Assembly (NCBI GenBank): GCA_017744515.1
Contig: JAGIBF010000046.1
Span: 1-64,000, forward strand
DNA length: 64,000 bases
Direction: 5' to 3'
Source of the DNA: Niastella sp.
Lineage (GTDB): Bacteria > Bacteroidota > Bacteroidia > Chitinophagales > Chitinophagaceae
Shown here: one piece after another, positions 2,195 through 6,383 of the stretch
Layout of the letters: every line of letters starts with the position of its first letter
Numbering within the stretch: the first letter of the stretch is position 1
Position numbers and translations under genes: made by a program
Notes under the pieces: generated by a model
The model's input: the letters and a program-made list of their open reading frames with translations, nothing else
The model's database searches: none
What the model was told of the DNA's origin: nothing

Positions 2195-3643
2195 TTATTC
2201 TCCCATTACTTCTCCGCCTTTTTTCATCCATGGCCTGGGTGCTGCACCATCCATTTTCACGATCTTAGGATAAAACAGACCTACAGTATCTACAAGATGT
2301 TGCTGGGCATTCATCACTGTATAGATATCCTTATAGGCATGTGGGGCCTCATCCAATCCACCTCCCAGCAGTTTCACGCCATGCTTTGTAAGCATTTCCT
2401 GTAAAGCGTTCTTTGTGATGGCATTCAAGGCAGCCGTTCTGCTCATTTTACGTCCCGCTCCATGCGAAGCGGAATTGATCGACGCCAGTTCACCCTTACC
2501 TTTTACGATAAAGCCAGGCGCCGTCATGGAACCAGGAATGATACCCAGCACATTCTTACCGGCAGGTGTAGCACCTTTTCTATGCACGATCACTTCCCGC
2601 CCTTCGTACATTTCCCGCCAGGCAAAGTTATGGTGGTTCTCTACCATTTTCAACGGCTGCCGACCCAATTGCTGCGCAATCTTGGCATGGATCACATGAT
2701 GACAGGCGCTTGCATAATCCCCCGCCAGGTTCATAGCCATCCAGTATTCTATTCCTTCATGTTCATCCATTGCCAGCCACGCCAGGTTATTGGCTTCACC
2801 CGGCAAACGCCTTTTCTGTTTAGCCACTTTGGTATAGTGATTGGCAATATTCGCACCCAATGCACGTGATCCTGAATGCGATAACAGTCCGAGGTAATTT
2901 CCCGGCGCCACACCCAACTGCTCATCCTTCTCTTTTACCTCAACAATCCCAAACTCTACAAAGTGGTTTCCTGAGCCGGAAGACCCCAATTGCCTGGCAG
3001 CCTTTCCCTGTAATCCTTTCAACAGAGGCAGCTGATCAAACTCCGGACGATCTATCACCGGATGCGCTGTGGATTGTTCAAACTGTCTTCCTCCACCAAA
3101 CAAAGTAGCCTCATTCAACTCACGGGTAAAATACTGCTCACGCTGTGTCAACTCTTTTGGATCTATATCGAATATGGATAAGCACATCCGGCATCCGATG
3201 TCAACGCCTACACCATATGGTATCACGGCGTTTTCTGTAGCCAATACTCCTCCGATCGGCAACCCATATCCTGCATGCGCATCCGGCATCAAAGCGCCTG
3301 CTATAGACACTGGCAGCTTAGCTGCCTGATACATCTGGTCCATAGCCCCGGGCTCGATGTACTCTCCTCCAAATACATTGAACTGGATACCAGTTGAATT
3401 CAGCGATATTTCCACACCTTCCGGTACCGGCTTAGGCAATAATTGTTGCGCCACGGGCGCCAGTATAGCATCCTCCACATACTCAGCCGGAGTAGCCAAT
3501 ACGTTCTTTAATATTTCTATTGCCTGTTCGGTAGTATGATGCTTGTAATTACGCTCCATCACATTCATGGCAATACTGATCACGGGTCCTTCCGGAAAAC
3601 CTATTGCCCTTAATTCTTTTCCTTTCAATTTTAACTTAGCCAT
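2195..3643 (-). CDS. rtcB: RtcB family RNA-splicing ligase
   Basis: PDAHAGYGLPIGGVLAT, GVDIGCRMC, GSSGSGNHFVEFG, SHSGSRALG, ENHHNFAW, SHGAGRKMSRTAA; the metal and GMP-His motifs of RtcB. Confidence 0.95.
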   Translation of the reverse strand: MAKLKLKGKELRAIGFPEGPVISIAMNVMERNYKHHTTEQAIEILKNVLATPAEYVEDAILAPVAQQLLPKPVPEGVEISLNSTGIQFNVFGGEYIEPGAMDQMYQAAKLPVSIAGALMPDAHAGYGLPIGGVLATENAVIPYGVGVDIGCRMCLSIFDIDPKELTQREQYFTRELNEATLFGGGRQFEQSTAHPVIDRPEFDQLPLLKGLQGKAARQLGSSGSGNHFVEFGIVEVKEKDEQLGVAPGNYLGLLSHSGSRALGANIANHYTKVAKQKRRLPGEANNLAWLAMDEHEGIEYWMAMNLAGDYASACHHVIHAKIAQQLGRQPLKMVENHHNFAWREMYEGREVIVHRKGATPAGKNVLGIIPGSMTAPGFIVKGKGELASINSASHGAGRKMSRTAALNAITKNALQEMLTKHGVKLLGGGLDEAPHAYKDIYTVMNAQQHLVDTVGLFYPKIVKMDGAAPRPWMKKGGEVMGE

Positions 3644-3648
3644 ATTAC

Positions 3649-4722
3649 TTAATTTTCAATAACAGCTCTCCTGAATCCAATTACCTGCACTTGTTGTTGC
3701 TGGCTTACCGGCTCACCCGGATTGGTGATCTCAGCAATGGTCATGGGCTGTTTTATTAATGTATCGAATCCCAGTTGATTGCTCAGTCTTTGCGCTTTTG
3801 GAATACTCAATTTACCAAATTCGTATCGTGCAATCAACCTGCCCTTCCGCATCAGCGCACTATCTATCATCGTCAATGAGCTATTAAATGTACAGATCAA
3901 TTGCACATTCAAAAAGTCAGCCAGTAGCCCATCAGAAATATTCAGCAGATTGGATACTGAGGAATGAGGATTGTTTCTCCTGTCCATGATCACATTTTCT
4001 GCATCTTCGATGATCACCACACTATTGGGGTTATCGATGAGCAAATCAATGAAATCAGGATCAGTGAGGCTTCCTGCGATATTGGGAGACAAAAACATTA
4101 CTTTCTTTTTGATCCGCCCAATTAAGTGACGCAGATAGGTAGTCTTACCCGATCCCGGCACTCCATGCAGTAATACGATCCCTTTATCATCCTTTTGGTT
4201 CAACCGTTTCCTGATATGTGCATCTACCTCTTGGAAATCATCTTCGTAGTAGAGGTCGAGGTCCAGTTTTGTACGCTTGATCTCCATTGCTTTCAATTCG
4301 AGATAGTTGCCACTCTTAACGATCAGGTTGATCTCCAACGGCTTTCTGCGCTGCCTTTCTTTGAATTGACGCAGGAAGCCAATCAGTTCTCCGATCAGCA
4401 GTTCGTTGGCGCTATCATGCAGAAGCTCACAATAGCCTTCAGAAAACTCCAGCACACAACGGTCTTTCAGGATCACGATCGTGTCGTTAAAATCAACTTT
4501 TTTATCGCCCCGTTTGAATTTACGGTACGTATGTACCGACTCAACGAGCGCTTTATATTTTTCCTGGAAAGCTGTATATGCCTTTTCACCCTCGATATCG
4601 TCTACAAAACTGATACAGGGAACAGCAGCAAAACAGTACATGTATAAAGCTTTGCTATCTATATAATAATTATCAAAAATGCTATTGGCATTAATGATAC
4701 GCTGGTCTAAAGTGTTGTCCAT
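3649..4722 (-). CDS. AAA family ATPase (BCS1-like)
   Basis: Walker A LLHGVPGSGKTTYLRHL, Walker B SVVIIEDAENVI, sensor-type segment LICTFNSSLTMIDSALMRKGRL; 5 bp upstream of rtcB on the same strand. Confidence 0.85.
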   Translation of the reverse strand: MDNTLDQRIINANSIFDNYYIDSKALYMYCFAAVPCISFVDDIEGEKAYTAFQEKYKALVESVHTYRKFKRGDKKVDFNDTIVILKDRCVLEFSEGYCELLHDSANELLIGELIGFLRQFKERQRRKPLEINLIVKSGNYLELKAMEIKRTKLDLDLYYEDDFQEVDAHIRKRLNQKDDKGIVLLHGVPGSGKTTYLRHLIGRIKKKVMFLSPNIAGSLTDPDFIDLLIDNPNSVVIIEDAENVIMDRRNNPHSSVSNLLNISDGLLADFLNVQLICTFNSSLTMIDSALMRKGRLIARYEFGKLSIPKAQRLSNQLGFDTLIKQPMTIAEITNPGEPVSQQQQVQVIGFRRAVIEN

Positions 4723-4756
4723 TGTTTTAATTTGAAATAGTTAAGAAGTCTTTACC

Positions 4757-4779
4757 CTGTCAGGCAGCTGAGCTGCTGA
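4757..4779 (-). promoter_or_regulatory. Small stem-loop (GCAGC-TCA-GCTGC core) between the RNA array and the AAA gene
   Basis: Inverted repeat tcag-gcagc-tga-gctgc-tga; no U-tract follows. Confidence 0.3.
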
Positions 4780-4836
4780 GTTTCAAAAACAGTTCGCTAT
4801 TTCATTACACGAGTGCGCATAAAATGTGGTTTTAAG

Positions 4837-4907
4837 CGGGAACAGGATGATTCGAACATCCGTCCATCCGTTAACAGCGGAGCGTTCTGCCATTGAACTA
4901 TATTCCC
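4837..4907 (-). tRNA. tRNA-Asn-like (anticodon GTT), compact, no encoded CCA
   Basis: Acceptor GGGAATA/TGTTCCC, D arm GTTC-AATGGCA-GAAC, anticodon loop CTGTTAA, T arm GGATG-TTCGAAT-CATCC, G73; 4-nt variable loop, 71 nt. Confidence 0.85.
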
Positions 4908-4910
4908 AAT

Positions 4911-5048
4911 AACAGGGTAATGAGTCGAAAAGTGCACATATGTCCATTGCTCTGCCAACTGAGCTACCGGCCCATTGCATGTTCCGGGCTGGACTCGAAC
5001 CAGCGACACATGGGTTATCCGAAGTAACACTTCTCTACGACACCTGTT
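4911..5048 (-). ncRNA. Y-RNA-like element 1: Ro-type stem plus tRNA module circularly permuted at the anticodon arm
   Basis: Outer stem AACAGG/CCTGTT, TGTCGTA internal loop, stem GAGAAGTG/CACTTTTC, TTACTTCGG; then CCAT, T arm GCTGG-TTCGAGT-CCAGC, CCGGAAC-ATGCAAT-GGGCCGG, TA, D arm GCTC-AGTTGGCA-GAGC, ATGG. Confidence 0.75.
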
Positions 5049-5049
5049 G

Positions 5050-5120
5050 ACGGCTTAAGAAGACTCGAACTTCTATCTGTACGTTCGTAGCGTACTATTC
5101 TTCCTTTAAACTATAAGCCG
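5050..5120 (-). tRNA. tRNA-Arg-like (anticodon ACG)
   Basis: Acceptor CGGCTTA/TAAGCCG, anticodon arm GTACG-CTACGAA-CGTAC, T arm AGAAG-TTCGAGT-CTTCT, 4-nt variable loop; T73 atypical. Confidence 0.85.
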
Positions 5121-5123
5121 ATG

Positions 5124-5195
5124 GTTGTCTTTGGGCCTCGAACCCTGTTCTCCTCATTCACAGTGAGGTATTTTACCTGTTAAACTAAAGACAAC
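5124..5195 (-). tRNA. tRNA-His-like (anticodon GTG) with G-1:C73
   Basis: Acceptor TTGTCTT/AAGACAA preceded by G-1 and followed by C73; anticodon arm CCTCA-CTGTGAA-TGAGG; T stem shortened. Confidence 0.85.
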
Positions 5196-5201
5196 ATACT
5201 G

Positions 5202-5274
5202 ATACCGGGCTCAGATTCGAACTGAGAACATCACAGTCAAAGTGTGATATGTTGGCCGGTTACACTACCCGGTA
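5202..5274 (-). tRNA. tRNA-Gln-like (anticodon TTG)
   Basis: Acceptor TACCGGG/CCCGGTA, anticodon arm TCACA-CTTTGAC-TGTGA, T arm CTCAG-TTCGAAT-CTGAG; T73 atypical. Confidence 0.85.
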
Positions 5275-5277
5275 TTG

Positions 5278-5351
5278 TTGGCCCGGTGAGAGTCGAACTC
5301 ACAACCCAGGGAGTAAAAGTCCCTTACTCTGCCTGCTTGAGCTACGAGCCA
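5278..5351 (-). tRNA. tRNA-Lys (anticodon TTT)
   Basis: Acceptor TGGCTCG/CGGGCCA, D arm GCTC...GAGT, anticodon arm AGGGA-CTTTTAC-TCCCT, T arm GTGAG-TTCGACT-CTCAC, A73. Confidence 0.9.
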
Positions 5352-5363
5352 ATGTTTATTCTG

Positions 5364-5436
5364 TTGACCTGCCGGGGCTCGAACCCGGAGCTTTCTGCGT
5401 ATAAGGCAGCTACTCTTACCATTGAGTTACAGGTCA
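5364..5436 (-). tRNA. tRNA-Ile-like with unusual anticodon TAT
   Basis: Acceptor TGACCTG/CAGGTCA, D arm ACTC...GAGT, anticodon arm GCTGC-CTTATAC-GCAGA, T arm CCGGG-TTCGAGC-CCCGG, A73. Confidence 0.8.
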
Positions 5437-5441
5437 GGCGT

Positions 5442-5510
5442 TGCGACCTTCAGATTCGAACTGAGATCTTCACCTTATGAGGGTGATATGCTACCCTTAC
5501 ACCAGGTCAC
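5442..5510 (-). tRNA. tRNA-Met/Ile2-like (anticodon CAT), short form
   Basis: Acceptor GTGACCT/AGGTCGC, anticodon arm TCACC-CTCATAA-GGTGA, T loop TTCGAAT with 4-bp T stem; about 69 nt. Confidence 0.8.
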
Positions 5511-5517
5511 AATAAGT

Positions 5518-5588
5518 ATAGCGGCAACAGGTTAACAGTGTTTAGCTTTGATCCTCAGTCGAAGTATCACTGTTTTACGACACGCTAT
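5518..5588 (-). ncRNA. Y-RNA-like element 2: minimal form without tRNA module
   Basis: Outer stem ATAGCG/CGCTAT, TGTCGTA internal-loop strand, stem AACAGTG/CACTGTT, ATACTTCGA; 71 nt. Confidence 0.65.
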
Positions 5589-5589
5589 G

Positions 5590-5662
5590 TATAGCAGGCA
5601 GGACTCGAACCTGCACCCTCTTCGTTCCAGGCGAAGTATCCAACCAATTGGAATGCTGCTAT
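5590..5662 (-). tRNA. tRNA-Pro-like (anticodon TGG)
   Basis: Acceptor ATAGCAG/CTGCTAT, anticodon arm CTTCG-CCTGGAA-CGAAG, T arm GCAGG-TTCGAGT-CCTGC, A73; position 8 is C. Confidence 0.85.
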
Positions 5663-5667
5663 AAGTT

Positions 5668-5808
5668 GAATGAGCTATAAGATGCACAGCGACTATGATC
5701 TCTGAGCTATCCTGCCCAAAAGACAGGAGCAGGAGTTGAACCCGCGACCTTTCCGACACAAGTACCGGAACGCTCTAACCGAAGTAACGCTATGCTACGG
5801 CATCATTC
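5668..5808 (-). ncRNA. Y-RNA-like element 3: Ro-type stem plus tRNA module circularly permuted in the D-loop
   Basis: Outer stem GAATGA/TCATTC, TGCCGTA, stem GCATAGCG/CGCTGTGC, TTACTTCGG; then TTAGAGC, TTCCG...CGGAA hairpin, T arm GCGGG-TTCAACT-CCTGC, TCCTGTC-TTTTG-GGCAGGA, TA, GCTC. Confidence 0.75.
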
Positions 5809-5814
5809 AATATG

Positions 5815-6348
5815 TTAGTCCATTACTGTTTTTTGTATCTGCACAAGATGTCTTTGCGCATGTTGCACCAGAAAATAGATATAATGATATACATCTATTT
5901 TACCAAGACTATTGACTGTCATCGTTGTTTTATACAACACCCCCTGCCCATCCTTCATTTGATCAAGCAGATCAAGGCACTCCTGCACCTGTAATTGCAT
6001 CGTTCTTTTAATGTCATTCATTGATACTGTCCCGGAAGGCTCCATATGATCAGGTCTATGCCATCTGAAAGCATCGGGCTGCCCGATCAATTCCAGTTTT
6101 GACCAGTCGAGGTCATAATCAGTTAGCATGTCCCGATAACTTTGAGTTCTTGAGCGCTCTAACGCCTTGATCGTTCCCTTCCGGATCAGTATCAACAGAT
6201 ACTTATTGGTCAGGGATATATGTTCCAGTATTTTAGCGACACTCCAACCACCATTTTCAGGCGCATGGTAGAGTTTATCATCATTCACATCGAACCACCT
6301 CAACACTTCATCAAAAGTGCCGGTGAGTTCTGTCCTTATCTTGCTCAT
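5815..6348 (-). CDS. DinB-superfamily (YfiT/DinB_2-like) protein
   Basis: MSKIRTELTGTFDEVLRWF, WSVAKILEHISLTNKY, HYIYFLVQHAQRHLVQI; start chosen after AAGGAGG; stop lies 6 nt before the RNA array. Confidence 0.75.
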   Translation of the reverse strand: MSKIRTELTGTFDEVLRWFDVNDDKLYHAPENGGWSVAKILEHISLTNKYLLILIRKGTIKALERSRTQSYRDMLTDYDLDWSKLELIGQPDAFRWHRPDHMEPSGTVSMNDIKRTMQLQVQECLDLLDQMKDGQGVLYKTTMTVNSLGKIDVYHYIYFLVQHAQRHLVQIQKTVMD

Positions 6349-6383
6349 AAAATCCTCCTTCATGCATTTAACTTTTTGGAAAA

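Follow-up and report, generated by a model that had tools for sequence, protein, structure and literature searches.

An array of tRNAs and Y-type RNAs lies between the genes for Ro60 and the RNA ligase RtcB in a 64,000-nucleotide stretch of a Niastella sp. genome (contig JAGIBF010000046.1; the whole stretch is referred to as the window). The question raised by this locus was whether one of these RNAs, Y RNA 3, carries a tRNA fold that is opened in the D-loop, and what role an RNA of that shape would have. YrlA, the known bacterial Y RNA of this general kind, is a circularly permuted tRNA mimic (PMC11472068; PDB 6CU1). It is a substrate of tRNA-modifying enzymes, and a Ro-Y RNA particle can tether PNPase (PMC8394870). 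The ro-Y RNA-rtcBA operon of Salmonella responds to damaged tRNAs (PMC7790460). Y RNA 3 is a bacterial Y RNA with a tRNA-like domain, and its break point differs from that of YrlA. Its fold, break point, conservation and position between ro and rtcB are established computationally, with near certainty, by the analyses below.

Gene neighbourhood and RNA array

The following features were located, all on the minus strand.

2195 to 3643, minus strand: RtcB RNA ligase (Pfam)
3649 to 4722, minus strand: AAA ATPase (Pfam)
4836 to 5511, minus strand: seven tRNA genes, Met, Ile(TAT), Lys, Gln, His, Arg and Asn (ARAGORN), with Y RNA 1 between Arg and Asn
4925 to 5050, minus strand: Y RNA 1, YrlA-type, opened in the anticodon arm (RF02553, whole model)
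5520 to 5590, minus strand: Y RNA 2, minimal, with the Ro motif as in Y RNA 3 and without a T arm; fold not better than shuffles
5590 to 5662, minus strand: degenerate tRNA resembling tRNA-Pro (TGG), with C at position 33, immediately 3' of Y RNA 3 (Rfam tRNA model, 51.9 bits; no ARAGORN call)
5662 to 5810, minus strand: Y RNA 3, whole element, a D-loop-opened tRNA-like Y RNA (RNAfold minimum free energy (MFE) fold; covariance model R1, 127.8 bits; covariation)
5815 to 6363, minus strand: DinB_2 protein, upstream of Y RNA 3, with 4 nt between its stop codon and the RNA (Pfam)
6443 to 7960, minus strand: Ro60 ortholog (TROVE and Ro vWA domains), upstream of the array on the same strand (Pfam)

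The minus-strand order is therefore Ro, DinB_2, RNA array, AAA ATPase and RtcB. Read from 5810 to 4836, the array comprises Y RNA 3, the degenerate tRNA, Y RNA 2, the Met, Ile(TAT), Lys, Gln, His and Arg tRNAs, Y RNA 1 and tRNA-Asn. The extent of Y RNA 3 (approximately 5662-5810) is slightly larger than that of the initial annotation (5668-5808). Four nucleotides separate the DinB stop codon from the start of Y RNA 3, and the following tRNA begins at the 3' end of the RNA; this spacing suggests that Y RNA 3 is released from a common transcript. The source genome comprises 7.6 Mb in 172 contigs, and the nearest named relative of its Ro protein is from Paraflavitalea sp. CAU 1676 (Chitinophagaceae).

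As in the Salmonella rsr-yrlBA-rtcBA operon (PMC7790460), Ro, Y RNAs and RtcB share one cluster; the present cluster differs in its tRNA array, AAA ATPase, DinB-like protein and Y RNAs of several topologies. Neither rtcA nor rtcR was seen among the neighbouring genes examined. The tRNA array resembles a spare set, six of its seven isoacceptors being encoded again at other places in the genome. Arrays of about ten tRNAs were also observed a few kb upstream of ro in other Bacteroidota (L136, 5515-6727; L061, 3920-4845; L108, 5551-6560). The tRNA-Ile at 5363-5436 (minus strand) has the anticodon UAU; in bacteria AUA is usually read by a CAU tRNA with a lysidine modification. The degenerate TGG tRNA has close relatives in L040, L041, L043 and L059, where it is well conserved beside Y RNAs.

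Fold of Y RNA 3

The segments of Y RNA 3 are listed 5' to 3' on the minus strand. Helix numbers and conservation refer to A3, an alignment of 28 D-loop-opened RNAs. Every segment named in the initial annotation was located on this strand at the place given for it.

5803 to 5810, minus strand: outer Ro stem, 5' strand, TTGAATGA, including GAATGA at 5808-5803 (helix 1, 99.4% paired)
5788 to 5795, minus strand: inner Ro stem, 5' strand, GCATAGCG (helix 2, 93.7% paired, both-side changes at 7/7 pairs)
5781 to 5787, minus strand: TTACTTC motif, directly 5' of the tRNA module and common to the Y RNAs of these arrays (CTTC in 28/28)
5779 to 5780, minus strand: G18 and G19 of the D-loop, with the break directly 5' of GG (G at each position in 27/28); in Y RNA 3, TTA (minus strand) separates GG from the D stem
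5772 to 5775, minus strand: D stem, 3' strand, GAGC (helix 3, compensatory changes)
5751 to 5770, minus strand: anticodon-like hairpin TTCCG-GTACTTGTGT-CGGAA, with a 10-nt loop
5746 to 5750, minus strand: variable region AGGTC (position 48 a pyrimidine in 25/27)
5729 to 5745, minus strand: T arm GCGGG-TTCAACT-CCTGC
5710 to 5728, minus strand: closed acceptor stem, TCCTGTC at 5728-5722, TTTTG linker, GGCAGGA at 5716-5710, then TA (MFE fold; helix 6)
5704 to 5707, minus strand: D stem, 5' strand, GCTC (covariation)
5692 to 5703, minus strand: opened D-loop, 5' half, AGAGATCATAGT
5684 to 5691, minus strand: inner Ro stem, 3' strand, CGCTGTGC (covariation)
5666 to 5673, minus strand: outer Ro stem, 3' strand, TCATTCAA, including TCATTC at 5673-5668 (helix 1)

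RNAfold of 5662-5810 gave an MFE structure identical to the centroid and to the drawn fold, at -54.1 kcal/mol. Shuffled sequences averaged -40.6 kcal/mol (z = -3.7), and 0/200 shuffles were as stable. In this structure a Ro-type stem leads into a cloverleaf cut in the D-loop, with a closed acceptor and an anticodon-like hairpin. The proposed opening of the D-loop is thereby confirmed, and the comparative test described below is far stronger than the single-sequence fold. The acceptor strands had been described as fully complementary. The helix is indeed closed, but it consists of six Watson-Crick pairs and one G-U wobble. Within the 10-nt anticodon-like loop, G-U and A-U pairs may form and leave a CUUG tetraloop.

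Neither ARAGORN nor Rfam at the gathering threshold gave a match inside 5663-5810, as expected of a permuted tRNA. At the gathering score, Rfam returned only tRNAs in the window and in the relatives.

Relatives and covariation

The survey of Ro loci covered 20 genomes sampled from the same family and 80 named genome records. Arrays in these loci contain RNAs that share a G-Y-CGTA motif, a stem of approximately 7 bp and TTACTTCG. Y RNA 3 carries the GYCGTA motif in its terminal stem, of which helices 1 and 2 covary; this stem is a putative Ro-binding site. The assignment of Y RNA 3 as a Y-type, Ro-associated RNA is borne out by the Ro gene beside the array and by a Ro stem motif common to all topologies.

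Fourteen D-loop-opened RNAs were gathered first. RNAalifold on a MAFFT alignment of these 14 gave, unguided, the D-loop-opened fold as consensus, with double changes at 25/31 pairs. In the 28-sequence alignment A3, 94.8% of paired cells held standard pairs, compared with 40-45% in slid controls. The covariation score was 0.771 versus 0.09-0.16 when slid, no shuffle reached the observed values, and both-side changes occurred at 29/31 pairs. A3 was fitted to the model and leans towards the structure; the 14-sequence RNAalifold consensus and a partner shuffle of hand-assigned strands are independent of that fit. In the latter, pairing was 98% versus 50% for the anticodon-like stem, 94% versus 51% for the acceptor and 99% versus 82% for the T stem. 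The D stem varied little in this set (95% versus 90%; 19/2000 shuffles as good), and in the wider set its variants are GAGC/GCTC, GCGC/GCGC, GAAC/GTTC and GAGT/ACTC. MFE folds of two relatives, L065 and L034, miss the D stem.

tRNA character of the module

Modules rotated to the normal order were called as tRNA by ARAGORN in 23/28 cases, compared with 5/28 for unrotated sequences and 0/560 for shuffles. The T-loop residues T54, T55, C56 and A58 are present in all 28 members. Of the other tertiary residues, U8 is kept in 28/28, A14 in 27/28, R15 in 26/28, Y48 in 25/27, and G18 and G19 in 27/28 each. Since core and elbow residues are nearly invariant, the contact between D-loop and T-loop can form despite the cut before G18. 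A57 was tried as a marker of the D-loop form and rejected (16/16 at first, then 24/28, against 19/97 in anticodon-opened RNAs); its enrichment may be explained by shared descent.

The anticodon-like loop ranges from 3 to 14 nt across relatives, with 7 nt in 3/16, and the pairing of its stem is conserved. At 10 nt, the loop of Y RNA 3 is not a decodable 7-nt anticodon loop. The loop of one member, from genome G187 (L018/L034), is that of a normal tRNA-Asn, CTGTTAA. The acceptor spacers of many relatives are short GNRA-type loops.

Forty tRNAs of the genome were set against the rotated module in search of a host parent, and the best match, tRNA-Asp, is not close. A further D-loop-opened RNA, L210, is tRNA-Leu-like, with an GGCGGAATT D-arm half and a long variable arm, so that more than one tRNA parent is likely.

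Distribution of the D-loop-opened form

Covariance model R1 was built after the first 14 members had been gathered, and its E-values are rough. Two members outside the training set were found in the same family (G087 and G063). R1 also matched eight more genomes in two other families of the order, two in another family of the class and one in another class. Bacterial D-loop-opened RNAs scored at least 68 bits and other Y RNAs of the same loci at most 61 bits. A ninth match, G556 at 61 bits, reads as anticodon-opened and was rejected. The search for the same break point in other genomes, suggested by the initial annotation, thus found it kept in several Bacteroidota families, in more than one class and on one phage contig.

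In the family sample the D-loop form was present in 9/299 genomes, and Ro was found in 21 by protein search; these samples were even draws and not full surveys. Most relatives sit in Ro loci, as does Y RNA 3. The D-loop form is also present in a cultured relative, Pseudoflavitalea sp. G-6-1-2 (L064). One of the nine genomes, G087, has the D-loop form without Ro. In this same-genus genome, L059 (approximately 3628-5123) holds DinB, the RNA array, AAA and RtcB and no ro gene, and a search for a Ro remnant in G087 found none. Its Y RNA 3 has TTTCTTC in place of TTACTTC and a mismatched anticodon-like hairpin. Relaxed constraint after ro loss would fit these changes, and a Ro-independent role of the RNA is also compatible with them. 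In G091 a D-loop-opened RNA lies beside rtcB on a contig with no ro nearby. D-loop-opened Y RNAs were also observed immediately downstream of rtcB, and not of ro, at 1493-1623 in L035 and 11593-11725 in L115.

On the phage contig IMGVR_UViG_3300020021_000008, two RNAs precede a TROVE-vWA gene, one YrlA-type (42.1 bits) and one D-loop-opened; the MFE fold of the latter has the same junction. No second clear D-loop-opened RNA was found in 94 further viral Ro loci. Viral L357, at 58 bits, reads as anticodon-opened. Viral matches to the pattern TACTTCGGTN{0,1}AGAGC were mostly chance, with the full structure in L212 alone. A blastn search against phage and plasmid sequences returned ordinary phage tRNA-Ile and otherwise nothing.

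Proposed role and alternatives

Y RNA 3 is probably a Ro-associated Y RNA with a complete tRNA fold entered via the D-loop, acting as a shape mimic or tether held at the elbow. Its outer part would be the Ro-binding stem. The inner part would be the complete tRNA fold, entered between approximately residue 17 and G18, in which a short loop seals the acceptor stem and the anticodon arm is a free hairpin. Y RNA 3 would be cut from a polycistronic Ro-DinB-RNA-AAA-RtcB transcript, and the flanking tRNAs may provide RNase P cuts. Ro would then grip the stem, and the tRNA-shaped part would recruit or tether a tRNA-binding protein during tRNA damage and repair. For this combination of excision, Ro grip and recruitment, the case for and against appears evenly balanced. 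D-loop entry would place Ro at the tRNA elbow and leave the acceptor and anticodon arms free, and the YrlA form would place Ro at the anticodon end; the array would thereby offer tRNA shapes in different orientations. Recognition is more likely to be by shape than by anticodon, since conservation extends to the stems, core and elbow but does not include the anticodon loop.

The strongest competing explanation, which we nevertheless consider unlikely, is that the RNA works as a decoy or competitive inhibitor, with its free anticodon-like arm as bait for tRNA-cutting toxins. RtcB would meanwhile repair the genuine tRNAs, and lost ones would be replaced from the spare array. A competitive-inhibitor role has been proposed for YrlA (PMC7790460), and the location between ro and rtcB, with seven tRNAs of which six are second copies of isoacceptors, agrees with it. 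So does the anticodon arm, which is present in the D-loop form and absent in YrlA, as does the normal Asn loop of the G187 member. A loop-specific nuclease would however find little to read in loops of such variable length with no anticodon conserved.

It is far less probable that the locus is a permuted tRNA gene giving rise to a working tRNA, with the stem excised, the halves joined by RtcB and the acceptor loop opened by RNase P and tRNase Z. The order of 3' half, short spacer and 5' half is that of permuted tRNA genes in algae and Thermofilum pendens, and rtcB is in the same cluster. A D-loop junction (20/21) is known from the permuted tRNA-Leu gene of C. merolae (PMC3978253). Those genes encode working-tRNA precursors with a BHB splicing motif, whereas Y RNA 3 has a Ro stem in its place and an unconserved anticodon loop. 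The Ro stem is itself conserved by covariation (helices 1 and 2), most relatives' loops, like the 10-nt loop here, could not decode, and many acceptor spacers are short GNRA-type loops. The tRNA-splicing endonuclease that serves permuted tRNA genes is known from archaea and eukaryotes.

Topologies of Ro-associated RNAs

The YrlA model of Rfam runs in the order T arm, acceptor and whole D arm and is therefore opened in the anticodon arm. Y RNA 1 fits RF02553 at full length (E = 4.6e-8 on 156 bases, 40.4 bits, below the gathering score of 69). The fit of Y RNA 3 is partial, covering the T arm and acceptor (15.8 bits, E = 0.7), and does not reach 69. Despite this partial fit, a wrongly parsed ordinary YrlA, or a decayed tRNA remnant with chance pairings, can be set aside as highly improbable, since the model expects an unbroken D arm to follow the acceptor, the D strands of Y RNA 3 stand at opposite module ends and covary, and R1 separates D-loop-opened from other Y RNAs. 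The comparison with YrlA that the initial annotation had called for thus upholds its claim of two topologically different permutations in one array, Y RNA 3 opened in the D-loop and Y RNA 1 in the anticodon arm.

Like YrlA (RF02553, PDB 6CU1), Y RNA 3 is encoded beside ro and has a Ro-type stem and a circularly permuted tRNA with a sealed acceptor and an intact T loop. In YrlA the opening lies in the anticodon arm, the D arm is whole and there is no anticodon hairpin, whereas Y RNA 3 has a split D arm and an anticodon-like hairpin. Topologies were assigned by covariance model and hand-assigned strands; an automatic sorter mislabelled some D-loop forms, Y RNA 3 included, as anticodon-opened. 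The anticodon-opened form occurs in 78/96 Ro loci by an approximate descriptor, and both forms are found together in 11 of the 13 arrays that have the D-loop form.

A third form was found in L062 (9870), L063 (7896) and L067 (9927), in which the acceptor is replaced and tRNA positions approximately 8 to 65 are joined straight to the Ro stem. These acceptor-opened RNAs carry the D, anticodon and T arms in the normal order, and in L067 the Rfam tRNA model aligns positions 7 to 64 to the module. Some RNAs bear a D-loop-opened module on the outer stem TTGAATGATGCCGT.../...GTTGCTCATTCAA, and others have an acceptor-opened module on it; this common outer stem with different modules is the best support for module exchange on one Ro stem.

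Repeated grafting of tRNA modules onto the same stem, as suggested initially, is supported in part. One outer stem does carry different modules, and L210 is tRNA-Leu-like. Against repetition, all members are opened at nearly the same point, and no single host tRNA is close to the module of Y RNA 3. On a FastTree tree of Ro the D-loop label needs at least nine changes, and this patchy distribution is as compatible with an old origin followed by losses, or with transfer, as it is with repeated invention.

Tentatively, the Ro arrays of Bacteroidota may constitute a kit in which one Ro stem is combined with tRNA modules opened at the acceptor, the D-loop or the anticodon arm. If so, the Ro ring would hold baits or tethers of tRNA shape in several defined orientations and offer each to its own tRNA-binding partner when tRNAs are damaged and repaired. 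Mimicry by the known YrlA RNAs is limited to the T, D and acceptor arms, whereas the D-loop class mimics the whole tRNA, anticodon arm included. This class, presumably held at the elbow, implies that the site at which the Ro stem joins the tRNA can vary. The arrays provide a natural matched set of RNAs for asking which tRNA face is displayed by the Ro-Y RNA particle and which enzymes it is displayed to. Since the D-loop class is absent from Rfam, it is missed by current annotation; earlier mention in the YrlA or RNA-repair literature is possible.

Two further kinds of RNA were observed in the Ro arrays. A module, GGGGAGGAATAGCG...T arm...GCCCC, is present as one RNA in many arrays, for example in Flavobacterium (L076, 9775; L077, 9781), Chryseobacterium (L139, 11830) and Bacteroides (L119, 7616); it is conserved, fits none of the three topologies and has a fold of another kind. 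Mini forms in Chryseobacterium (e.g. L087, 11910; L134, 11122) carry a T arm followed by an acceptor-like hairpin alone on the Ro stem.
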